DNA from: Roridomyces roridus
Lineage: Eukaryota > Basidiomycota > Agaricomycetes > Agaricales > Mycenaceae
Direction of reading: 5' to 3'
Length of the DNA: 64,000 bases
Assembly (NCBI GenBank): GCA_029378245.1
Contig: JARKIF010000021.1
Coordinates: forward strand, 620,001 to 684,000
Shown: positions 49,865 to 64,000 of the stretch, piece by piece
Layout of the letters: every line of letters begins with the position of its first letter
How positions within the stretch are numbered: position 1 is the first letter of the stretch
Position numbers and translations under genes: made by a program
Notes under the pieces: model-generated
What the model saw: the letters and a program-made list of their open reading frames with translations, nothing else
What the model was told of the DNA's origin: nothing
Database searches by the model: none

Positions 49865-50963
49865 GAGGGAGACCATCCCAGGTCGTGGTCTTATATCGTT
49901 CGCATGGTGGGCGGGGTTCTCGTCATCCGAGGGAGTTTAAAGGCTGTTTCAGATGGGTAGAATACAGTTTCTGACGGGAGAAGAGGGAGTTCCTCCGCGG
50001 TGGTCACTTGATGGTGGTCGCTGGTGAAAAGTGCCGCTTGCTGCCGTAAGCATCACTCCGCCCTTTGTCCCAAACCATCACCATCGATTTATTCCACCAC
50101 GACCCGCGAGGCAATTACTCTCTTCCAACGCTAGTTAGCGGCCCTCGTGAATGTAAATCGGACCACCTTTTGTCATGGCGAAAGATCGGGCAGCATAATT
50201 GCAACCGCAAAAAAAAACGAGGCAACGCTGTCGGCGACACGCGGCCCAGTGGCACCCCCAACCTAATCGAAACTCTGTATTCTCTCGACGACGGCCTTTT
50301 CTGTTTTTCTGGACTCTGCGATGCTCGTGGGCCCTCGTTCTCTAGCGCAGGGCTATTCATCTCCGTTGAGCATACTCACCGCGACTGGGGCACACAATCC
50401 GGCAGTCCCCGTCGATACGCCCCGAATCGAGTTGCGGCGCGCTTCGAAGCTTCTATGCAGACGTGAGTGTTTCACCTGTCCTTCCATTGTACCCTAATAC
50501 TTACCCTCACAGTGTTGTGATTCCGAAGAAACAAGCTCGGTATAGCAACTGCCGCTATAGAAGGGTAGAGAGAACGCTGCCTTCCTCCGAATGGCCGCTC
50601 CGACGAAGTCCGACGATTGGTAAGTACATACGGCCCTATACGGCCTCTTGTAACTTGACAACAATTGTGGTTAGCTCACGTAAAGAAACTAGTATCTGAG
50701 CGTAAAGCCTATTCAGTCCTCCGCTCGACAACGCAGATACAGCGAAATCGAGATTTTCATGTGCGCCATGATGCTGATGGTTGGTTTTGAGATGCTTCGG
50801 GACGGGCCGTCCTTGTTCGAGATGAAGAAAATTTAAATTTGGTTGTCCTATTCAAACCGACGCAGTCGTTCGGGTACGCCAAGTGTCCATTAATTACTAC
50901 TCCAATTAATCTATGCAATTCAGTATCTCCCTCCACTGCGAACCAGTCCATCCAGCCATCCTT
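49865..50963. other. Interval without a supported gene
   Basis: A plus-strand frame at about 50077-50466 continues through a plausible GT-AG intron to about 50640, but it has no clear start codon and no recognisable domain, so I do not call it. Confidence 0.3.
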
Positions 50964-51739
50964 CTAGTAGGAGCCATTGTTCCAGTTCCTGTGAATGATG
51001 TCAATATCGTCGATCCAGAGAAACCTGCCAGACGCACCCATGTCCTTGCCCGGTTCCCTGAGGACCATAATACATATCACCCTGGTCAGAACCGCGGGGA
51101 TGCTGTCCGCCCTGATACGGATAGCCCTGCCCGTGCGCAGCGTTGTATCCCTGTTGCCCATACTGCCCGGGCTGACCCGCGTAGTTGGATTGCTGGGGCG
51201 CGTTATTCTGGGCAAGCGTCAAGTAACGCGGGTCGACGAAGCCTTGGGCCGCAGCATCCGTGGGAGCCACACCGCGGTCGAACGAGCTGCCAAGCGGGGG
51301 GAGTGTCTGGCCGTAGAAACGGGGCCTCTGACCGGCGGGGGGTGGGCCCGTGTATGGGAGCGGAGGTGCGGGCGAGTTGCGGCCTAGATGCGCCAGTCTC
51401 GGATTCTGCCTTGGGTCGACGGGCATTGGGGCAGCCATATCGGCTGCATGCACAGGACCCCCGGTATACTCTGTGTCCTGCTCGTCCGAGACTGAGACGT
51501 ATTCGCAGTGTATATTCTTCCTGGCGCAGCGCTCGCAGGGACTGTTGGGCGGCTGTTCGAAGGTGATGCACTACGATCGAAGTCAGCAAAAAGAAAGAAA
51601 ATCAGAAAGCGGGAAAAGATGTACATACCCGCAATTTGCGCTTCCTGCAAGTCAAGCAGGCGATTATGGTGCGACGCTTCTTGGTCGCCTGGGGAGCTGC
51701 GTTGGGGTTCTGAGAGTAGGAAGCGGGGGCAGTAGACAT
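50964..51739 (-). CDS. Zn2Cys6 (Gal4-type) transcription factor, short
   Basis: A fungal zinc-cluster DNA-binding protein, nuclear. Three exons, 51739-51629, 51570-51038 and 50988-50964, give 222 residues. The binuclear cluster is split by intron 1: ACLTCRKRKLR then CITFEQPPNSPCERCARKNI-HC, with six cysteines spaced C-x2-C-x6-C-x11-C-x2-C-x6-C. A basic TKKRR tract precedes it. The remainder is Pro, Gln, Gly and Tyr-rich (for example YAGQPGQYGQQGYNAAHGQG) with no fungal-specific middle domain, so it is much shorter than typical family members. The last exon, ending NWNNGSY, rests on a good GTGCGT donor; without it the frame would end at 51001. Targets are unknown. Confidence 0.82.
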
Positions 51740-54316
51740 CTTTGCAGTGGTCAGTTGCTTATTGCCTTGAACGACGATGAGCGGCTCTATATACCGTCCT
51801 CTTCAAGTCTTTGAAACTCCAATGATACGGGTGAGCTGTAAATCTAGAAAGAATATCACCGGCGAAGTGAGTCCCCTCGTGCTGGAATGACGCGTAGTCT
51901 TTCTAGAAGGAACGTCCCGCCCTCTCCAAACGAAAGATAAAACGTCGATTATCAACAAGCTGTAAGTTGGCTAGGAAATTATACCATAAGAGTGTGTTCG
52001 TGTCATGTTAGGGCTGTTGAGAAACAACCGTCGAGTACAGCCCTGAATTCCAAAGGGTTGGAACTTTATAGCTGTGCAATGCGATTTGATTCGCCATCAG
52101 TTCAATTCTGTATGATCCTTGCCGATCCGCCGCGCGCCCACAATTGCCCACCATTGACAAACCAAGGTCTTGACTCGCCTGTTTCACGTCGGACAGCCTC
52201 ATTAGCCTATTCTGCATTTTTTCGTGGAAGGATTAACACAGCATGCCAGTCGCCGGCGTGATGTCTTGTCAAGTTTGCCGATTCTTAGTGGAGTGTTCGT
52301 TCTACGACCATCCGAGGGGTCATTCAAGAAAAGACGAGAAAAGCCCCTTGAAGTCCACAGTTTATTCCTGTCTCACCACAAGAATGGAGAGGTTCATATC
52401 GCTTGCAGAGTAACTATGTAGCGTTCACAGTCATTCTTACAAGTTCAACGAAAAATGCAATGAGCGCGGTCCAGGCCGCCCAGGAGACAGATGATACTGT
52501 TCTGCCCGGGCGACGAATGCCGATGCGGGCCAGCCCCCCGGAAGAAGCGGTGTGCACTGATCAGTGGGCGCGGGCGGATTGATTGATGTGATTGCCGACC
52601 GGAGTTGTCTCACTGCATTGTCAGACATTTCAATTTTCAAGTCGTGAATCCAAGTCTTTGGATCAGTGAGTCTCTAGACTAGCGCGCCACTCCGTCATGA
52701 AGCGGAAACTCATGGGTCCTCCGGTACTGGTTCAAGAGAACCCCAAAAGACGGTTGTGCACGCCCCGGGATCACCGCCGGCGTGCTTCACTGCAGATGAC
52801 CATGAAACGACGGAGGAGTTCAATGAGGTCTACAGCCTTTTGTACCATCCAGCGGTGAGTCTCTCGTCTAGTCTTCGATACAACTTCGATGGACTTTGGA
52901 TCATTCATCTCATCATCAATCAATTACTTAGTCATGCCGGCCACGTCTGCTTCCGACTCTCATCTCGCGCTCGCTTCTCTGACTCAGGCTGCAAACAGCG
53001 CGTACAGATCTCACCAACTCATGCTGTCTTTTAGATCGCAATTGCCTTCATCTGACTCCGAGGCTCGAGTTCAGCATCCAGGGACCAGCTCGGACCCACT
53101 CCGCGTGCGGGGGCTCGTATGTAGATGATGTCTGCACCGAGTACGACATCGATCGCCGGGGCGTCAAACGGTAGTGCGAGCACGGAAGACGGGGCGAATG
53201 AAGAAGAGAGGGCTGCTGGGGGGGAAGAAAGTTGGCCGCGATGTGACGCCGGATGTCTTTCAGTGAGGGGACACAGGTGTGTCTATTGTTTATCCTTTGT
53301 TCTCGTACATTCTGCTCATGGGTGAGGAACTTGTCTTTGCGAATTTTGGATGACTAGGCATTCTGCGCCAGCCCGAATCGCACTTCTGTGATATTGCCTT
53401 CGAGCTGCGCGCCATTGTAATTGCCTACATGGATCGATTCGGACTCTACTGCCGGCCATGGCTGGACAGCGGAGCAATGTGAATCTGCGAATTATAGCGT
53501 TAGCGGTGAACACCGGCCAGAACGGGAGATTGTATGTTGAATGGTTTTACAAAGTAAACTCGATCGGAATACAACAAGTTATTGGGGCATTTCTTTCTTC
53601 TACGCAACGCAGAGCGATCAATCGGAGACGTCGGCGACATCCGGCTATTGCAAGCTTCCGATCAACCCCACGGCGCATTGCATCCTTTTACGCGTTTGAT
53701 GTCTGATGAGTACTCTACTCTGCCGTCTGCGTACAGTTCAGCCCCCATGTATTCATTCGATGGGTAGGGTACGTTGCAAATTACTGCATCGTGGAACGCC
53801 TGCTGTACTTCCCTTCCCCAGGCGAACTCGGTACGTCACTGCATTCAACTCGGCCACTTTCTCCGCTCATCCCGCTGTCTTCAGATATCAAGTAGGCGCT
53901 GAATCACAACATTGGCGGCTAACTGCACTGCTCGGCGGTACTTCAACACGGCGCGGCCCGTAATGCTCTGCAAAGGCAGCTCCTTGTCTCAAGCTCCTAG
54001 CCTATTCCTAGCCGTCTTCGTCGGTTTTCCAATCTCCTTCCGCAATACGACAATTAAGTATACTGCGATGGGGGCGTTCTGCCTGCCGAATATCAGAGTT
54101 TCATCCAACGCTCCCTCAACTCATTGATACGTCAATTGTTTCGCTGACTTAGAGTGCGCCTGAACTCCCGTGAATTGCAGTTGTTCTCTATTGGATCTTG
54201 ATTTCGCTTGCTTTGCTCTACTTCTTCTTGGCATCGGTTGCGACGGTCTTGAATCCGCAGCGGCATACCTGCGTTGAAGATGAAACACTGACCGGATGGC
54301 GCAGATTGAATTCCTC
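51740..54316. other. Interval with only weak coding hints
   Basis: A plus-strand stretch at about 52936-53130 (start PATSASDSHLALASLTQAAN) and another at 53353-53479 (ESHFCDIAFELRAIVIAYMD) look protein-like and could be exons of one unidentified gene. I cannot connect them or name a family. Confidence 0.25.
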
Positions 54317-57300
54317 TCACCAAAGAAATGCCGACGCAAAGCACCGGCAGGCTGGTGATACACTGTGGCCAAGAGGACCGCCGCACTGGCGCTCTAGGAG
54401 CCCGAGTGGACCAGATTCGTCGAAACTTTCCATTCGTGAATATATTGATGAGTTGTACTGCTGACTACCATTTGAATGCGCAGGCACGACATTGGCTTGC
54501 TCAGCTGCCCAATCCGAAGCTGCACGCCTCTCCACCTGAGCGATCTCGTTGCGCACGGCAGACAGCAACGCCCGAGAGTGGCTCGTCTCCCATGTTGAGC
54601 CCCTCGCCCCTTGCCGCATCACTCGTTCCACGGCATCCTGAAACAACTCGAGGGCCTCCAACAAATGCCGTAGAGCAGATAAGCGTATGCCCGCAACGTT
54701 GTATGCTTCTGAAGAAATTCGCGGGAGGAACATGGACAAGGCCCACAGACGCTCGTCGAATGCACGGTGGTAACCGCGCTCGGACTGTTGTGGTGGTTGT
54801 TTTGGGTCTAGAAAGACGCGGCAGTACGCCAAGAGTGCTGTGAAAAACGTGCTTTGCAGTTCGAGATCAACTTTGGACCACGAGATATTGGCAAAGTCTG
54901 GGTCGGGTCGTATATTTACCCAAGGCAGCAAACTCAACGGTGAAGTCGGGGTGGTGGACGCGAGCACCTGGGTGAGTAAGCCGAGATACTGATCCAAAGG
55001 TCGATACCTGAGCGTCTGTGCAAGGACGTCCAGGTCTGCGTCGGGTGGTAAAAAGACCGGAGAGTGCGGATGGAAAAGCTCGTTGTCGCAGATTCCCTGG
55101 AACTCGCCAATCCTGGACGAGCCGGGTAGGACCACGAAATAATGGAGGTGCAGAAGATCGTATGCGAGGCGTTGTAGACACCGGAGAAGACGAATCGCAC
55201 GGATGTTTGGGTACCCCTGCGTAGATATTCCCGCAATGATCTCGTCTGCGACTTCCACGGCTCCGCGGTCGCTGGGGATGCAACCAATTAACACCACAAT
55301 AGCATGCGCGGTGCGATCGGCAACAAGACCCGTGTGAGCTGCGAGGTGCTCGCTCAACGATCTGCCGACGACGAATGCGTCGCAGGTCGATAAGGCATAC
55401 CGGATGGCCTCCGTATTTTCACGCTCGACCAGATATTTGAGATATCCTTCTGGGTGGAGTCGACCCTGTTGAGGTACAAAGGGGAACAACCTGAAAGCAA
55501 TTTGGGCTAGATGGTCGAATGTTGGATTGGGAAACGAGAACGGAAACTTTTGCAGATTTTGGGGGAAGAGAACGGCGCGGTTGGAATCTATAAAGTTGGG
55601 CCGACTCCCTTGAATATAGGTCAGGATTTCGTCCGCGAAGACCGGCTGAAAGACAGAGATGCCCTGTTCCACGGCGTGAAACGCATCTGAAAGGAAGGTA
55701 AAAACGGAAAGTATGCACTCCGCAGCCCAATCGTATGTCGAATCTAGAGCATCCACAGCATCCCGCACTTGGTCGAGGTGTGACACAGTTGGGAAGGATT
55801 GTACGATCCCACCCGTGAGCCGTTCAAGGTCCTCTAGTGGAACGCTAAACGGCCGTGCAAATCCAAAGGGAATGGGATAATGCCCCGAGGATGCAAGCGT
55901 CTGGAGCACCGGCAGCCGTCTACGCAGTGTTGGTAAGACTTGATTGCGAAATCGCGGAGATGACGGATCGCGGCAGTCTCCCAGCATCGTACGAAGACTC
56001 TGCACCAGATGGTGATACCATATATGTCTTTGGTACGCCACGGCGAGTACACACACGGAGTATGACATGTTGTCTGGGCTGAACTGGAGGAAAATGCGCG
56101 TCTGAAACCGATGCTCCCAGGGGTGCGGGATCATGCAGAGCGCCGCGAGAGCCTTCATCCCGGCAATATACCGCCGACCGATGAGGGGATTGTCGACGAC
56201 ACCGGCGGTGCCCTGCGCTGCAACGACAAGATCGGATATCCGCATCACCAGTGGACTGGGTGTGTCAACATCCCCAAGAACTGGTGCGAATAAATTGGCG
56301 TGGAGGGTCCTGCCGAGCTTCCCAGCCAAAATATCCGGGATGACCTCGACGAAAGGAAGGAACTCGTCTTCATCGGTGAGAGAGTCCAGCGTCCACCGAA
56401 CCGCACGTTGATCCCTTTTCTCTGTGTCCTGGAGAGCGGAATCCACAACCGCCTCCGTCATGGTGACGATTTCAGGCTTTGGAGTGAGAGACGTGCGGAA
56501 AAATGCCCGAATCCGTTGGAAGACGGACCACAGCGGGGTTGATAGCGGAGTCCGATAGGGACAATCCAAGTATATGACCGGGAGGACGGTGAGGATTGAG
56601 TATACCAGCAGCAGGAGGATGAGCGCGCCAGCCATGAGGTACATGATGAAGTGGTTTATGGGGAGGAGGAACGCGACGAGCCCGGCGAAGAAGAGGAGCA
56701 GTGATCCGTGAATGAGGGACGGAATCGCGTCGACAACGGCCGGCATGTGGAATCGTTTGAGCCCAAAATACAGAAAGGAAAAAATGCGAGCTCTGCGGAC
56801 GGGGGAGGGTCGCATTTCCGTCTTGTGGAGAAACTCTCGGGCCCACTGCTCGACGAGAGTCGCCAGTAATGCGCAAATGAGGCTGAGAGATAGACTGACG
56901 AACCACAGAGCATTGCATACAAGAGATGCTGTGGTCGGCGTGAATTGGGACGGAGGTTGTACGTCGGCGATGCTTCCCGTTGAAATGGCTGCCAGTTGCT
57001 GGGACATTTGAGTCATCAAAGCAACCGTCAGGTCCCCGGAGTCCGGTTGGAGCTTCTTGTAGCTCTCAATGAGAAACGCGGTGAGACTGGCAGAGAAGAG
57101 GCCAGACTATGCAAGCTGAATGAGATTCAATTCGATGAGAAAGAAAAGACCATACGAAAATAAGCATGCCCTGCATGTCAGCTTTCCAGCTCTCCACCAA
57201 GGCTGCATCATATCTCTCCGCTTCTCCGACATAGATTGACCAGAGCTTTGCTGTTGATACTTCTCCCTCCTGATCGTTCTGAGGCCACGTATGGTACGCA

Positions 57301-57476
57301 GCGTACGCTCCAGCTGAAGATGCCGAGAAACGGAGAAATCGGAAAGCAGTGCGCGCCAGACGGCGAAACAGCGACCCTAGATGCACAATTTCAGCATATG
57401 TGCACCCAGTCATGTGGTGGCCCACCGTTCCGGGTACCTTCGGGTGGCGGAAGGCCACTTTCGAGCGCTCTTCCAA
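54317..57476 (-). CDS. DUF6535 multi-helix membrane protein
   Basis: A member of the Agaricomycete DUF6535 family, function unknown. Exon 1 (57476-57156) contains ESWKADMQGMLIF and joins in frame to exon 2 (57106-54317) at SGLFSASLTAFLIESYKKLQ, the conserved family start. Three more helices follow near residues 166-198, 239-261 and 263-288 (for example SLICALLATLVEQWAREF and SLLLFFAGLVAFLLPINHF). About 740 mostly soluble residues come after that. The total is about 1036 residues. An alternative last intron (from about 54480) would end the protein at 54394. The first exon may itself hide an intron; its start is the least certain part. Confidence 0.8.
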
Positions 57477-58004
57477 CTTTCATGGAAGTGGTAAAGGTCA
57501 AAGCGCCGCGTGTGAAGATCAGAAGCTGTCATCCTGCCACCTGGCACTGATGCCTTGAATTGCCGATTGATCCGAGACGTCACACAAGACGCGAGTGAAT
57601 TTCTGAGCATACCCACCCGAGGCCGAAGTTCAGCGCTCAACGCTCGCTCAAGGGTGGCCAAACACTACTAGTATCAGTGCGTTCGACTCCCGACAGCAGT
57701 GGATTAATCGTTACCTAGCCGGGGTTGTTGATGTCGACATGATCGCCGGACAATGGCCGGCTCAGTCCAAGTAGAACAACACACCATACAGCAATCCACA
57801 AATTTATTCACGATATTCAAACACAAAAATACATCGCACAAAGACTCGACCGAACAAAATGCGGGATGTTGTTGCCTCCGCAATGAGCCTCTCTACAACG
57901 CAGCAAGAAGAACGAATTGATTGGTTGATTGGTAGCTTCTGCTCGACGTGGTCAGCGACGTCGAATTTCGGACGGAGGGAAATACGCACCGAGCAAAAAA
58001 TAGC
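57477..58004. other. Intergenic
   Basis: No gene seen. It includes the 3' region of the pheromone-like gene on the minus strand. Confidence 0.4.
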
Positions 58005-58178
58005 TCAAGCAACGACGCACTGGCCGCTAGTCCCGCCTCCGCCGTCAGCGTTGGTGGGGGGAAGGGTGACGTCCTCCTTCGAGACGACGCATTGGCCACT
58101 AGTGCCTCCGCCGCCGTCGGCGTTGGTAGGGGGGAGGGTCTCGTCGGCTTTGGTGGGGATGGTGGTGAAAGTGTCCAT
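58005..58178 (-). CDS. Mating-pheromone-like CaaX precursor with two tandem peptide modules
   Basis: A 57-residue precursor beginning MDTFTTIP and ending in the CaaX box CVVA. Both are features of basidiomycete lipopeptide mating pheromones, which are farnesylated at the Cys, trimmed and carboxymethylated before export. The body is a duplication: the 18-residue peptide LPPTNADGGGGTSGQCVV occurs at residues 15-32 and again at 39-56, a 24-codon (72-bp) period. The first copy continues S-K-E-D-V-T into the second; only the second is C-terminal and can be prenylated directly. Over these 18 codons the copies differ at nine codons, all synonymous. Lys-(Ala/Glu)-Asp before each copy could mark processing. 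A TATAAG lies 41 bp before the ATG. No receptor gene of the Ste3 type is in the window. It could alternatively be another farnesylated small peptide. Confidence 0.78.
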   Translation of the reverse strand: MDTFTTIPTKADETLPPTNADGGGGTSGQCVVSKEDVTLPPTNADGGGGTSGQCVVA

Positions 58179-58218
58179 GAGTGGTCAACTAGGGATTTGG
58201 GGCGTCCGAGGTGGGGTT

Positions 58219-58224
58219 CTTATA
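58219..58224 (-). promoter_or_regulatory. TATA box of the pheromone-like gene
   Basis: On the minus strand GGTATAAGAA lies about 41 bp upstream of the ATG at 58178, preceded by an A-rich stretch (AACAAAAAAGAG). The position supports expression of this very short gene. Confidence 0.45.
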
Positions 58225-58890
58225 CCTTTACTCTTTTTTGTTTCGCCGAACGAGGAAGACGATCAGAGTCTGTATGCTTCATGGAAAGGGGTAGAACGAT
58301 CACAAAAGGTCTTGTTTGAGAATTCAGTCGCTATTTGAATGGGTTTTCAACCGAGTCGGAGTCGCGTCGAGGCGAAAGTGGAGCAGACCCAGGACAACCC
58401 GCTTTGTTGTAATCATTCGGTTGCATGCTCCAGGACGGAACCATTCCAGTTGGTTTTCTCGTACACCATCTCTCCCACCAAAACCAGCCTGTGCAGCTCA
58501 GAATATTCGCAGTCGCGTGCATTGTCCTGCCCAGACAGGGGTTCTTTCAATTTATTGAGCTCGTGGCGCGGACCCACAAAACACTTTTTGTTGGCCTCGA
58601 TCAGGCAACGCCTACTTCTGGAAAGGGGTAGAAGGAGCTCATTCGAGAATTCAGTTGCGCTATGAACGAGCAGAGGACAAACCGCCTTGTTTAAAAGCTA
58701 AAACTTTCAGTTCGATACCATGGCCACTCGAATTCCAGGGCCCCGGGGAGGATTGAATTATTTCTCTCGCGTCGGGTGATTTCCTACAGACCCACCCATC
58801 CCCCTGGAATAAGGCCGATCTGAAGTCATTAAAGCGACAAGGCTCGGCGGCATCGGATTTGCTGACTTGCCTCCGGGACAGGGGCAGTTA

Positions 58891-59956
58891 CAGCTAAATG
58901 CGGAACATAAGGCGCGGCTCGATTTTTGTCAAATTTCGTGACATTTCGATCACTTTCAGTAATTACGCTGTTGCGGGCTCGTTTTTTTTCCGATTGTGTT
59001 CGGATATGAACCAATCGATTCCCACCGTCCTTTTACAGTGCCTAGGGTACTTGAATAAATTGTTTTCGTATGAATATGAACCCCAGAGAAGCACATGATT
59101 AATTTCAACTATTGACACACCAGCAGTTGAGGGGAATGTACTGGGGTCCCAATATTTGACCTGGGCACTCTCCTACATCTGATACAGTGCGCCATGGCCT
59201 CAAATTGTGTCCAGATTCATGAGGAAAAAGTAGGTGTATCAATATCTCTTGCCATCACTGTTCAGTTGTATCTCAGCTCGTGGCGGGCTAATTTTCTCAA
59301 ACCACCCATGTGGTGCCACTCATAGACATCCCGTACCATCATCCCGCCTCATCCGAGGGCCATTTACGCAACGGAAAACGAGCAGAACGCTGCCCGACAG
59401 ACGCTCGGAATGCGTGACACAAGTGTGACAAGCACAATCATTCGAGTGGTTGTGCTGCACTCTGCATTGAATCAACAGATTCCGGTGCCTCCGGATAGCC
59501 CGGAACTTTGAGATGTGACCCTGAACTGTAGTCAGACATGCTCAGAATATCTGCCGCGGAGTCCTGTGGCTAACAATATGGTCATGTTGTGATGCACCTC
59601 TGTTATGATAAATAGACACAGAACCGCGGCATACCTGGCTGCACAGACCACCCTACGCACTGTGTGGCACCTGTGAGAGACTAATGGTTCAATATTTAGT
59701 GCACAAAAACATTCCAAAGGCAGTTAAAGTGTCAATGGTTGAAAAACATCGGATCCCTTGATTTGACAGAATGATGCAATAACACAAATGATTCTTGTAG
59801 CCTAAGCACTGTAAAACTACAGTGGGAATCGATTGGTCCATGTCCGAAGACACTCGGAAAAGAAACGAGCCCACAACAGCGTAATTACTGAAAGTGATCG
59901 AAATGGCACGAAATTTGACCAAAATCGAGCCGCGCCTTATGTTCCGCATTTAGCTG
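58891..59956. mobile_element. TA-flanked element with ~155-bp terminal inverted repeats
   Basis: The segment starting CAGCTAAATGCGGAACATAA at 58891 returns inverted, ending at 59956. Similarity between the arms extends for about 155 bp at roughly nine in ten positions and includes ATTTCGATCACTTTCAGTAA and CCAATCGATTCCCAC. Both outer ends are bordered by TA (58889-58890 and 59957-59958), the duplication of Tc1/mariner/pogo elements, and the CAG terminus fits that group. The 1066-bp element has no recognisable transposase, so it is probably a non-autonomous derivative. Confidence 0.78.
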
Positions 59957-60367
59957 TAAATTGAACTAGGAACGGTTCAATTCGTATTCAATGATGTGAA
60001 CGTGGCAGACTTTTGTTCGCCTCGATCAATCCTGAATCCACGTTTCGAGCCTCGATCAATGAATGCGAGCAAATGAATGTTCACTGGACTTGCGGAGGAT
60101 AGCGGAGTTAACCACGAAGTAATATGGGATATTCGGATTCTCGGAATGGACGACGAGTTTTGCATCCTTGTGGCCAGGGCGCGGTGGTGAGGTAGGAAGG
60201 AATCGGGGTGTTGGTGTTGCGCATGGAGCTGGAAGATGGCCGTAAATACTGCTTCAATTAACCTTCTACTCCTCCCTACGCCCACCACGATGGCCCTCGA
60301 ATTACGGCCTCGATTTGACAACTCGCACTCTCTCCAGCCTCATCCCATAAATCCACCCCACACTTTC

Positions 60368-61862
60368 TCACTCAGAATCCTCCTCCGACTGTGAATCATC
60401 CTCCCACTCCGAGTCTGAATCCTGTTCAACCCCAGCAGGCGCCCTTGTCCTTGGCACCCTCACTGACACCGCATCCCCAAACCAATCCACCTCTCCCCGA
60501 TACTCATACACACTCTTCTCAACAGGCACATACTCGCCAAACAAATACGGCGGCACCAAACCTGGCCCACGCCACGCCATGTACACGCAAAACTGCACTC
60601 CCCGCGCGCGCAACTCGCCACTTAGCTGCCGCACGCGATCCCTCCTGGCCTCGTTCTCCCAGAGAGCGGAGAGACTCGAGGAGCCGACGGGGGAGAGGAC
60701 GACGTCGAGGTGTCGCAGGGTAGGGAGGTACCGGAGTAGCGCCTCAGGATGGGGGATGTTTGGGATGCTCGTGGAACCGCCATGAGCAGGTAGGACGTCG
60801 AAGATGACACCGTTGTCATGCCAGACGAGACGCAATCTGTGGAGGTTGGGAGGGGCGCGGTCGGAGAGGAGGAGAGAGAGGAAGAACGCGCAGTGGCCGT
60901 CCAGCGTGAGCGTGTGGAGTTCGGTAAAGTCGGACAAGCCGGGTGACCCGCTCGTGGACATGGCCACATAAGGGACTCCGTCCGAGCTGTGAGAAAATCC
61001 TGCGTCTTTCCAGACGAGCGACTGCAGAGCGTGACGCTGGCTGCGCAGAGCGTCGAGCTGCTCCTTGGGCGAAGCTTCTTCGTGCCCCCGTGCATTCTCC
61101 ACGTCGCGACGTGTGTGCCGCAGTTGTCCTAGATGGCAGGAACGAAGAGCACGGGGGAGAGAGAGGACGGCGTATAGCCCCCGTCCAGTGACGAAACACT
61201 CTATGAGCTCGAGATGGTGTAGGGCGGTGGTGCCCTCGTTCACGCCCCAGTCTTCGGCGACGATCGCGGCGCTTGAGATTGTGAGGCTCCTCAGCGCCGG
61301 CAAGGCGAGTATCGGCTTGAACTCGGTGAGCATCCACAGCTCCGAGCCGTCACCAGTCCAGTGTATCTCCACTACAATTCGGCGTAAATGGATTGCAAAG
61401 AAGAAAAAAGTCTAGAAACTCACAGCTCTCGAGACTCTGCAACCCCACGCCAGACTGCGCACTCTGGAAGAGCGCTCGAAAAGCCCCCGTAATGACTTCC
61501 CACCGGCTCTCGCTATGGTGCCAACGACCGTAATTCGCAAAGGGACTTTCCACGGAAAGACTGCGAAGGTGCGTCATCACCGAGATAGTCGGAGTGAAGT
61601 CCTCGATGCCCTCTTCCCCGCGGTATTGTGGCCGGAGATCCAAGCTCTGTACAAAATCCGCGCGGTGCTGCTGTAAGGCCTGGGCGAGGCGCGACGCCTC
61701 CGAGCCGCTGGTGACGAGAAGTGTGCGGTACAGGATCGGCTCGGTCAAAAGGCAGGCGAGTTTACAGGTGACGGCAAAGTGACGCAGCGAATCTGAATCC
61801 GAATCCATAGCGTCGATGACAGCGAGGAGGAGCTCCGTGGGCAGGGAGAAGAGCAGCGACAT
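60368..61862 (-). CDS. F-box protein with acidic C-terminus
   Basis: A predicted SCF ubiquitin-ligase adaptor. Two exons, 61862-61424 and 61371-60368, give 480 residues. The F-box lies at the very N-terminus (LLFSLPTELLLAVIDAM then HFAVTCKLACLLTEPILYRT). Leucine-rich, repeat-like sequence follows (for example LRSLTISSAAIVAEDWG and LRYLPTLRHLDVVLSPVG), and the protein ends in a very acidic tail (SDSEWEDDSQSEEDSE). In-frame Mets upstream of 61862 exist, but SLLFSLPTELL is the usual F-box start. The target is unknown. Confidence 0.82.
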
Positions 61863-62561
61863 TGTGGGACAAGCGAAGAGCAGGCCGATCAAAGTTAGGT
61901 AAGCTCTGATGTCAATACTCGTCATCCGCACTCATCCCGGCCGATGCAGTTCACGGCCTTTGTGTCCAGCAAGCTCCCGCAGCTCCTTCGGGAAGAGGCT
62001 CTGCGAGAAGACAGTCATTCGGCCCCAGAGTGCCGGATGCGAGCAAGGATGACCTGGGGAGACAGCACAGAACTGAGAAATGACCACCCTTGCCCGCCGC
62101 GTCCTCGGACATCGATGACTATTTATCTATGCGCTCGGAGCGCTCCTAACTGCCTGCCTAACTCTCGCACGTGACGACCGCTTCCTCAAGATTCAGCACA
62201 CAAGTCTGGCTTAGAATTCCAGGGCTGAGAAGCCGCCGTCAAGGACAACATACAGCTGGTGCGGAGAGAAACCTCCCCAGTCCATGTTCGCCAGAAGAAA
62301 AAAGACCTACTTCTCCTTCGAATTCCAAGCAGGAACGCAAGCCAATCTTCTTTGTCAGGTCCTAGGAGTCGAAGTCGGACGGCGACGCAGTGAGCCTTGG
62401 ACTCGCATGCGCGAGCTTGTTGTCCGCTCTTTCGCTTCGACCGACCCCTTCTGGTATCCCTTGTACTCAGAAACGCGGACTCCTAACCCACTAGCCTGAA
62501 TTTCTATATAAACCCCAACGGTGCGCATCCACTCCCCAGTCATCCAGATTCTACTCATCCA
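61863..62561. promoter_or_regulatory. Divergent intergenic region with TATA box for the secreted protein gene
   Basis: TATATAAA at 62505-62512 lies 50 bp before the ATG at 62562 and is a good promoter element for the secreted protein gene. No gene is seen in the rest of this region. Confidence 0.5.
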
Positions 62562-63279
62562 ATGAAGTTCAGCGCCTTCGCCCTCGTCCCCCTCGCAGCC
62601 GTTCTCGCCAACGCCCAAAAGGTAGGGCGCAGCTTGCCAAATACTCGCTGATAACTAACTCCCTGCTAGTTCAAGTTCTGTAACGTCGGCCAACAAGGTT
62701 GCGCGTACACCAACGATGTCAGCGACGACACCGATCGCAACGTCCTCCTCCTCACCAACGATACCACGGCTCCCAACCAGAACGTGAGTTGTCCTTTCAG
62801 TTGTATGGCGGTGCCTGATGTAATTCTGTGGGCAGTGGGTCAAGTACAGCCCGTCGGGCGAGAACATAATTGTGCACAACGCCAACACCGACCAGTTCCT
62901 CACTGTGTACCGCGCCCCCAAGCCCGTACGCACTCACCTGTCTGCTATCGACTTGTTTCCTGAGACTTTACCTAGATGCAAGTGATCACCAGCGGACACG
63001 GTCCCTCCACGTTTATCGTTCTTTGCGGCAATGGCCAGTGCCAGGCAAATCACCATTTCTTCTCGATATATAAGCTGTTTATTGAATTTTTATTTTCAGA
63101 TTAGCGACCGGAACTCAAGCATGTGTCTCGAGGCTGGTGTCAACAAATTGGTGAACTCTTTCTACCTCTTCCAATTTGGTCGTTCCCTTTGCCTGACTGT
63201 CCCAACTCAGGTTGTGTTGAAGAATTGCACCAGCCCTCCGCTGCTCAACCAGCTTTGGGAGTTTGATGCGCCCAATTGA
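62562..63279 (+). CDS. Small secreted protein, possible beta-trefoil
   Basis: Six small exons, 62562-62621, 62670-62783, 62836-62925, 62976-63044, 63100-63150 and 63211-63279, give 150 residues. A signal peptide (FSAFALVPLAAVLANA) is encoded by exon 1. The mature part reads FKFCNVGQQGCAYTNDVSDD, WVKYSPSGENIIVHNANTDQ and CLEAGVNKLVVLKNCTS, then NQLWEFD at the end. Cysteines and the final QxW-like motif suggest a ricin-B/beta-trefoil-like fold, but this is tentative. The fourth intron has a GC donor (CAG|GCAAAT ... TTTTCAG); no GT donor nearby keeps the frame. All other introns are GT-AG. It may be a secreted effector or carbohydrate-binding protein. Confidence 0.75.
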
Positions 63280-63410
63280 AGCGCTCAGGTTTCGGATAGA
63301 CTTGACGGAATGGCGGCGGGATCGATTTCACAGTGCTTACAAGGCCAGGTCAATGAGTCACAGTACTGTGTAGTGCATAAAAAATCCGGCCGTTCTGCAT
63401 CGTGGTCAAA

Positions 63411-64000
63411 TTATATCGTCTGTCTAAACCTCGGCCCATCTTCGGTCTTGAGCGTCCTCAGCATCGTCTCTCTCAGCGTCTCCGGCTTGAAGTCAAACTT
63501 GGTGTTATCAAGCGGCTCGTTGACCGTCACCAGCCCAGAAGACCCAACTTGCCATCGAACCGCCCATAGAAGCTCATCGTACTCGTCCCCGCGTTGACGC
63601 GCCTCCTCCTGCTTCTCGATAGCCACCGTCGGATCGTGGTATGTGACTCTATATTTCACGCCCTGGACATCCTCCAGCAGGGTGATGAGTTGCGCGAAAG
63701 TCATATGGTCCCCACGGACGCAGAGTTGGCGACGAGACGTTCCTTGAGGGAACGGGAGGAGGACCGAATCGACGGTGTACCGCACTATGCTGAAGTCAAG
63801 TCAAGACTCTATTAGTAAACAACAACGGGAACCAACGAAGAACGCACTCTTCGAGAGCAGTAACAGAAATCTCCGCCTCGGGCGTACCATACGCCTCCAC
63901 AACGTGGTTCTCCACATCGATCCCACAAATCTTGCTATACGCCCACTGAGAGAACTGACCCGTCACGATCAGCGTGTATCGAAAGTCAGAGTGCGTTTTT
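63411..64000 (-). CDS. NmrA-like / isoflavone reductase-like NAD(P)-binding protein, 5' end off the window
   Basis: The C-terminal part of an atypical short-chain reductase. Exons 64000-63848 and 63789-63411 join in frame through an intron with donor GTGCGT. Visible motifs are LIVTGQFSQWAYSKICGIDV, NHVVEAYGTPEAEISVTALE, then D-IVRYTVDSVLLPFPQG, DHMTFAQLITLLEDVQGVKY and the end WAVRWQVGSSG followed by NTKFDFKPETLRE, as in NmrA/PCBER-type proteins. The N-terminal Rossmann GxxGxxG motif, needed to judge cofactor use, lies beyond the right edge. Function could be redox sensing or reduction of a small metabolite. Confidence 0.75.

Follow-up and report, generated by a model that had tools for sequence, protein, structure and literature searches.

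Pheromone precursors of basidiomycetes are described as proteins with an MDS/AF start that are farnesylated, trimmed, and methylated (PMC5100862, PMC8305134). Processing is presumed to occur at a charged pair, such as ER, ED, or EH, 10–15 residues before the end (PMC5100862), and the mature pheromones are 9–14 residues long (PMC4101180). Basidiomycete sexual pheromones are described as not being built of repeated peptides cut by KEX proteases (PMC6339444). A non-mating-type class of pheromone-like precursors, reported from A. bisporus, C. cinerea, and L. bicolor, comprises short CaaX proteins with an MD-S/A-F start that occur in several similar copies (PMC8305134). In A. bisporus, the predicted peptide is Gly-rich and 11–13 residues long, and the precursors have 44–54 residues, none of them described in the accessible passages as carrying two peptides (PMC8305134). 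Non-mating-type STE3-like receptors are widespread in Agaricomycetes, with their function and pheromone binding given as unknown (PMC8305134).

Precursors with more than one prenylated peptide have been described or proposed elsewhere in fungi. Rhodotorucine A precursors of red yeasts, encoded by several RHA genes, contain one prenylated peptide repeated in tandem, with CAAX-like spacers between the copies, and only synonymous changes in RHA2.A1 were reported between two Sporidiobolus species (PMC3068285, PMC3236058). The enzymes that process rhodotorucine A are unknown (PMC3068285). In Hypocreales, as many as three prenylated peptides are proposed to come from a single HPP1 precursor of the H type (PMC3068285).

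Here we analyze a gene of the mushroom Roridomyces roridus that encodes a CaaX precursor with two copies of one peptide. Red yeasts belong to a subphylum distant from that of mushrooms. The gene shares with the RHA genes the tandem modules, the CAAX-like spacer, the presence of several genes, and synonymous-only change (in RHA2.A1, as reported between the two Sporidiobolus species), whereas the RHA genes lie at the MAT region and encode a different peptide (PMC3068285, PMC3236058). The architecture, which the original prediction had called unusual, thus has a precedent in rhodotorucine-type tandem peptides with CAAX-like spacers (PMC3068285, PMC3236058). The HPP1 precursors are ascomycete proteins with other motifs (PMC3068285). 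Likened by description, the non-mating-type precursors resemble the R. roridus protein in their CaaX end, start, and copy number, and those of A. bisporus also in a Gly-rich core; the two modules and the internal CaaX-Lys/Arg junction set the R. roridus protein apart from them (PMC8305134). A literature search over titles, the beginnings of abstracts, and passages, with few subscription journals covered, found no two-peptide precursor in mushrooms, and nothing on a Roridomyces roridus pheromone, on Mycena pheromone precursors and mating type, or on five peptide letter strings. Within that coverage, tandem prenylated precursors are already known in red yeasts and proposed in Hypocreales, and the two-module form in mushrooms is new.

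The two-module gene and its surroundings

The window, by which we mean the whole stretch of 64,000 nucleotides that was analyzed, corresponds to C124:620001–684000 of the 90.8-Mb R. roridus genome. The two-module CaaX frame runs along the minus strand (58178→58005) and consists of 57 codons plus TGA; its open reading frame translation is MDTFTTIPTKADETLPPTNADGGGGTSGQCVVSKEDVTLPPTNADGGGGTSGQCVVA (57 residues, with an MDTF start). The 57-codon frame of the original prediction, which gave no strand, is borne out, and so are the exact duplication, the internal Cys-Val-Val-Ser, and the terminal CVVA that it had claimed: the 18-residue module LPPTNADGGGGTSGQCVV is present twice, exactly, with a 24-codon period. 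The MD-x-F start and the C-terminal Cys-aliphatic-aliphatic-X of short CaaX precursors are represented by MDTF and CVVA and are kept in relatives, and the CVVS-KEDVT between two identical modules corresponds to the rhodotorucine-type plan of copies of one peptide with CAAX-like spacers. Six open reading frames of 25–120 residues in the 64 kb have a loosely defined CaaX end, and a repeat was seen by eye only in this one. The gene is short and apparently intronless. Its parts are listed in Table 1.

Table 1. Parts of the two-module precursor gene and associated elements (positions in the window)
Feature	Position	Strand	Remarks
Complete coding frame, two-module CaaX precursor	58005..58178	-	Seven of the nine window-type places encode this protein
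Leader MDTFTTIPTKADET: MD-x-F start, Lys and acidic residues before module 1	58137..58178	-	
Module 1, LPPTNADGGGGTSGQCVV	58083..58136	-	Same as module 2 save for 9 synonymous differences
Internal CaaX-like motif Cys-Val-Val-Ser	58080..58091	-	
Linker SKEDVT, with Lys straight after the internal CaaX	58065..58082	-	
Module 2, LPPTNADGGGGTSGQCVV	58011..58064	-	
C-terminal CaaX box Cys-Val-Val-Ala	58008..58019	-	
TATA-like box TATAAG, 41–46 bases upstream of ATG	58219..58224	-	Aligned in 6 of 7 copies, missing in the C135 copy
GAAACAAA element, upstream of the TATA-like box	58237..58244	-	In 8 of 9 window-type copies
Duplicated unit common to other genome copies (approximate extent)	57801..58326	-	From BLAST blocks and conservation profile

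The profile of the fungal mating-type pheromone family (PF08015) scores the window protein at 17.1 bits (E = 0.012), which is below the curated cut-off of 22 bits; it matches 17 of 24 relatives at E-values up to 1 (best, 8.6e-5). In 24 aligned sequences, F4 of the leader is invariant, and M1, D2, K10, and E12 are at least 90 per cent conserved.

The GAAACAAA element is found in 8 of 27 upstream regions in all, compared with 1.75 per cent of random 250-base stretches of the window, with the caveat that the copies are related and hence not independent. The pheromone response element of Ustilago is ACAAAGGGA, and it does not occur in the 200 bases upstream of any of the 27 genes examined. Another motif, GAACAA[AT], which we take to resemble an HMG-box site, is present in 16 of 27 upstream regions (250 bases) of pheromone-type genes versus 9.6 per cent of random stretches, and in 8 of 14 when one gene per lineage is counted. 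Because it is absent upstream of the window gene itself, we do not use it as evidence.

Several other features adjoin the gene. Its upstream region is partly repeated ~330 bases further upstream (58282–58339 versus 58619–58666, in two pieces that are 80–87 per cent alike). An inverted repeat ~0.7 kb upstream of the gene (58888–59066 and 59781–59959), with 179-base arms that are 90 per cent complementary and 714 bases apart, may represent a small transposable element bounded by terminal inverted repeats. Also on the minus strand, an 899-residue frame (54317–57016) matches DUF6535 (PF20153; E = 4.6e-31) and another frame (57066–57413) matches the start of that domain (E = 2.1e-5); the two are perhaps exons of one gene. 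An Rfam scan of positions 50000–64000 gave no match at gathering scores.

Gene copies and selection on the modules in Roridomyces roridus

The genome contains at least nine window-type places (C124, C335, and C135, and two each on C57, C456, and C113). Two pairs look allelic and encode identical proteins, C57:857k with C456:38k (95.7 per cent DNA identity over 1428 bases) and C57:980k with C456:104k (94.8 per cent over 1978 bases), so that the nine places represent ~7 loci. Exactly the window protein is encoded at seven of the nine places, and the copies on C335 and C135 differ from the C124 copy by one and three nonsynonymous changes, respectively. The C135 copy (L015:1706–1879) looks to be decaying, since it has lost the TATA region, has the most amino-acid changes, and ends in CVVD, an improbable CaaX.

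Between modules 1 and 2 of the window gene, 9 of 54 bases differ, all of them at third codon positions, giving nine synonymous and no nonsynonymous differences. The probability that nine random single changes would all be synonymous is ~8e-6 (Fisher P ~9e-7 for the module comparison), with the qualification that the nine are not all independent substitutions, because some fall within a run of Gly codons that looks displaced by one codon from one module to the other. The comparison of whole genes gives the same picture: C124 and C113:382k are separated by 12 synonymous and no nonsynonymous changes (P ~2e-8), and among seven aligned copies, conservation is 99 per cent at codon positions 1 and 2 and 83.5 per cent at position 3. 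Outside the frame, conservation drops. Expressed as mean pairwise identity of the seven copies in 25-base bins, with gaps counted as differences, it is 91–97 per cent in the coding frame, 77 per cent in the first 25 bases upstream, and 51–65 per cent in the following 125 bases; on the other side, ~200 bases downstream remain at 58–85 per cent before values fall to 40 per cent or less. As judged from these codon comparisons, both modules are kept by purifying selection in R. roridus, and one precursor encodes one peptide twice.

Across the nine places, module 1s differ from each other at a mean of 3.6 of 54 bases and module 2s at 2.1, compared with 9.3 between module 1 and module 2 of different genes. 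Because like modules resemble each other across genes more than module 1 resembles module 2, the duplication of the module within the gene predates the nine gene copies. Within single genes, the two modules differ at 8–10 of 54 bases with no amino-acid difference anywhere, and the persistence of these differences argues that the modules have not recently been overwritten by each other. Two non-allelic places, C57:857k (856.7k) and C456:104k (104.2k), have identical coding DNA in a matched stretch whose flanks are ~90 per cent alike; copying between loci may therefore add to the sameness of the copies.

A second two-module subfamily occupies six places on C1 and two on C484, with apparent allelic pairs at C1:947k and C484:14k and at C1:962k and C484:33k; the C484:33k copy lacks the usual start and was left out of later counts. 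The internal motif of this subfamily is CVVC-Lys, and in six of the seven places analyzed the cores of the two modules are equal (SGSGTSGQC or SSSGTSGQC), the exception being C1:2855k. At C1:2951k, one matched Ser is encoded by TCG in module 1 and by AGC in module 2, a difference unlike what recent copying would leave.

More divergent forms are also present. The copies on C224 and C491 have a changed module 2 and an internal CVVL-Arg, and those on C114 and C334 have lost the Cys of module 1 while module 2 is still good. Single-module precursors occur at C491:686k, on C35, and in clusters on C105 and C157 (four of eight matched C105/C157 places were read), where the core VNDDSGTGSSGSC is the same as the module of two-module precursors such as Mycena latifolia P0010. 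The loss of the module 1 Cys on C114 and C334 and the existence of single-module paralogs indicate that two equal modules are not always needed. The C105/C157 clusters (L086–L089) have an extra inner Cys-Ile/Val-Ala-Ser that may be left over from a first module. The genome also has a copy with a broken frame on C290, and copies that are only partial on C190 and at C1:117k.

Related precursors across Mycenaceae

The original prediction tied its claim of a pheromone-like CaaX precursor with two copies of one peptide to the presence of similar precursors in related species, and these do exist. A profile made from eight R. roridus sequences was searched against proteins, with scores computed for the 8000 candidates sharing the most words, and revealed at least 45 related proteins: 5 from Roridomyces, 3 from Favolaschia claudopus, 28 from 15 Mycena species, and 9 without a species label. 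Nearly all are annotated as 'hypothetical' or have no protein name. All three genera are Mycenaceae, and the two-module design recurs in each of them; the claim is thus supported, and the design is that of a family rather than a one-off. As to relatives outside Mycenaceae, a protein search with P0045, which has an internal CVVA-Arg and two identical cores, matched only P0045 itself among 28 candidates.

An internal Cys-V/I-V/I motif is present in 44 of the 45 relatives. We tabulated it in 62 rows, namely these 44 database proteins and 18 of the 21 genome copies analyzed (the other three lack the motif); close relatives are included, and at least P0002, P0003, P0004, and P0043 among the database rows duplicate genes that the genome copies already include. 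Directly behind the internal CaaX stands a basic residue in every row (Lys in 55, Arg in 7), and the next position is Glu in 56, Ala in 4, Val in 1, and Thr in 1. In the RHA precursors, a Lys is reported to follow each internal CaaX. The X of the internal motif is Cys in 47 rows, Ser in 11, Leu in 3, and Ala in 1; in the 42 rows whose last four residues are Cys, two of V/I/L, and X, the C-terminal X is Ala in 40, Ser in 1, and Asp in 1. A metal-binding or redox CxxC motif, considered for the internal Cys-Val-Val-Cys, was rejected because other members have Ser, Ala, or Leu in place of the second Cys.

The modules share a plan in which a basic residue and an acidic stretch are followed by a motif of the LP-x-x-N-x-D type, a Gly/Ser-rich core, and a Cys-aliphatic-aliphatic-X end. 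Their spacing is near constant in 24 aligned sequences. The acidic residues before the core read N-E-D or N-D-D in most relatives and N-A-D (Ala-Asp, not Glu-Asp) in the window subfamily. Eight-residue cores are identical between the two modules in 39 of the 44 rows that could be read (database, 24 of 28; genome, 15 of 16), representing 16 distinct equal cores, and unequal in 5. The remaining 22 of 66 rows were set aside, as 5 have no usable internal motif, 3 have a truly different module 2 (C224, C491, and P0043), and 14 are models that end before the second Cys; among these 14, P0031, P0036, and P0037 disagree already in the readable part, and others agree up to where they break off. In 26 distinct module pairs, the two modules have the same residue at 242 of 260 positions, compared with 177.7 (s.d. 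6.1) for shuffled pairs, and none of 20,000 shuffles, which ignore descent, scored as high. With P0045 put aside, there are 15 equal cores; if they go back to a single duplication, both modules must at least 14 times have gained the same new core. Outside R. roridus, where only proteins were compared, repeated fresh duplication or copying between modules could be an alternative source of equal cores.

The original prediction also named an intron removing one module as a challenge. Some public models do lack the last CVVA: P0002, P0003, and P0004 have no final Cys-Val-Val-Ala, presumably due to an annotated intron. Their tails are unlike one another, whereas the plain frame with CaaX and stop is kept in paralogs and in several unspliced-looking predictions from other samples. 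The same three proteins and various Mycena models stop before the second CaaX or overrun it, again with tails unlike one another, and gene finders may be misled by what looks like a GTGCGT splice donor within the module 2 codons for Gln-Cys-Val. The many short gene models suggest that such genes are regularly mis-annotated.

Mating type, processing, and alternative explanations

In R. roridus, presumed B-locus pheromone genes (C57:1020–1022k and C456:208–209k) lie within ~2.5 kb of STE3 matches. The STE3 genes themselves (C57:1023k and C456:210k) have 82 per cent DNA identity, and two further STE3-like genes on these contigs (C57:763k and C57:1052k) are 99.8–99.9 per cent alike between haplotypes. 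Because STE3 and the adjoining single-module pheromones differ between haplotypes, we infer that this region is the active B locus. The presumed B-locus precursors resemble the window protein in their MDSF start and CVVA or CVIA end but have one module and are haplotype-specific. Two of the copies are also found on the contigs bearing this presumed locus, at least 43 kb away from it; two-module genes elsewhere are ~33 kb (C456:38k) and ~43 kb (C57:980k) away from the STE3 match closest to them, and no STE3 match was found on C124 among the best candidates scored. A B-locus pheromone differs between mating types and adjoins its receptor, which is not what the two-module genes do in the one strain represented. 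It is unlikely that the two-module precursor sets mating type, because at two allelic pairs the encoded peptide does not differ between haplotypes and the contig of the window gene has no reported receptor match. The word 'mating' in the original prediction, taken in its strict sense, is therefore not supported: allelic haplotypes encode the same protein, the proteins of the nine places are identical or almost so, the presumed B-locus genes differ, and the peptide is Gly-rich and like those of the non-mating-type class. The described features of that class are found here, in the core NADGGGGTSGQC, the nine places, and the same protein on both haplotypes at two pairs.

We propose that the gene belongs to the Gly-rich, non-mating-type pheromone-like class and encodes a two-module CaaX precursor in which both modules are under selection and both would be released as one prenylated peptide; from sequence comparisons, we assign this reading a probability of roughly 0.58. 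A protease would cut at the invariant Lys/Arg after the internal CaaX and thereby expose it, both CaaX ends would then be prenylated, trimmed, and methylated, and a cut near the acidic residues before the core would yield lipopeptides of ~10–12 residues. Each translation would thus export two doses of one ligand, and a receptor would read the products of both modules. We know of no protease that would expose an internal CaaX, and the reading is also weakened by the sub-threshold PF08015 score of the window protein, by the Ala-Asp that its subfamily has in place of Glu-Asp, and by the five readable rows with unequal cores. A broader version, in which the precursors represent a farnesylated signal of Mycenaceae independent of mating type, the internal CaaX is exposed before prenylation by a novel cut at a single basic residue, and the modules co-evolve since one receptor reads both, is advanced here tentatively and may well prove wrong.

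The main rival is that only the C-terminal module is prenylated, with module 1 being a leader that is cut off and degraded, a non-lipid peptide, or a decoy. Prenylation requires a free C-terminal CaaX, the genome has single-module paralogs for the same type of peptide (C105/C157, core VNDDSGTGSSGSC), and the C114 and C334 copies retain a good module 2 without the Cys of module 1. A leader would, however, be expected to drift, yet both cores match across genes, and module 1, including its Cys-Val-Val, equals module 2 in amino acids at all nine window-type places. We regard this explanation as less likely; the decoy or spacer copy that the original prediction had offered as an alternative is likewise disfavored by selection on both modules.

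Much less probable still is a mature product that retains both modules as a two-Cys peptide, perhaps doubly lipidated or disulfide-bonded, that acts as a bivalent ligand. The internal Cys-Val-Val-Cys of most relatives (X is Cys in 47 of 62 rows) and the near-constant module spacing would fit it, but all nine window-type places have Ser where the second Cys would stand, and Ala or Leu occurs there in other members, so that no CxxC is conserved, and mature pheromones are described as having 9–14 residues (PMC4101180). We give hardly more than token weight to the repeat being an inconsequential by-product of DNA slippage or conversion, with one module redundant. Codon shifts in the Gly run and turnover of gene copies (the frame-broken C290 and partial C190 and C1:117k copies) are of the kind it predicts, but it is at odds with the nine synonymous and no nonsynonymous differences between modules, with the retention of both modules in Mycena, Favolaschia, and Roridomyces, and with the TCG and AGC codons for a matched Ser at C1:2951k, which are unlike recent copying. 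Least plausible of all is that no pheromone-like peptide is made, and that the frame encodes a small CaaX protein of some other kind or forms exon 1 of a spliced gene, as the models P0002, P0003, and P0004 without the last Cys-Val-Val-Ala and the below-threshold PF08015 score might suggest. Against it, the annotated models have dissimilar tails, the plain frame is conserved through its CaaX and stop, and the described class likewise combines an MD-x-F start with a Gly-rich core and a CaaX (PMC8305134).

Under the reading that we prefer, in which both modules would be released as one prenylated peptide, the internal CaaX and the invariant basic residue behind it lead to a specific, testable proposal, namely that a precursor destined for prenylation could be cut beforehand. 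For the biology of these mushrooms, a multi-copy two-module precursor with near-identical peptides provides a definite ligand to test on the non-mating-type STE3-like receptors.
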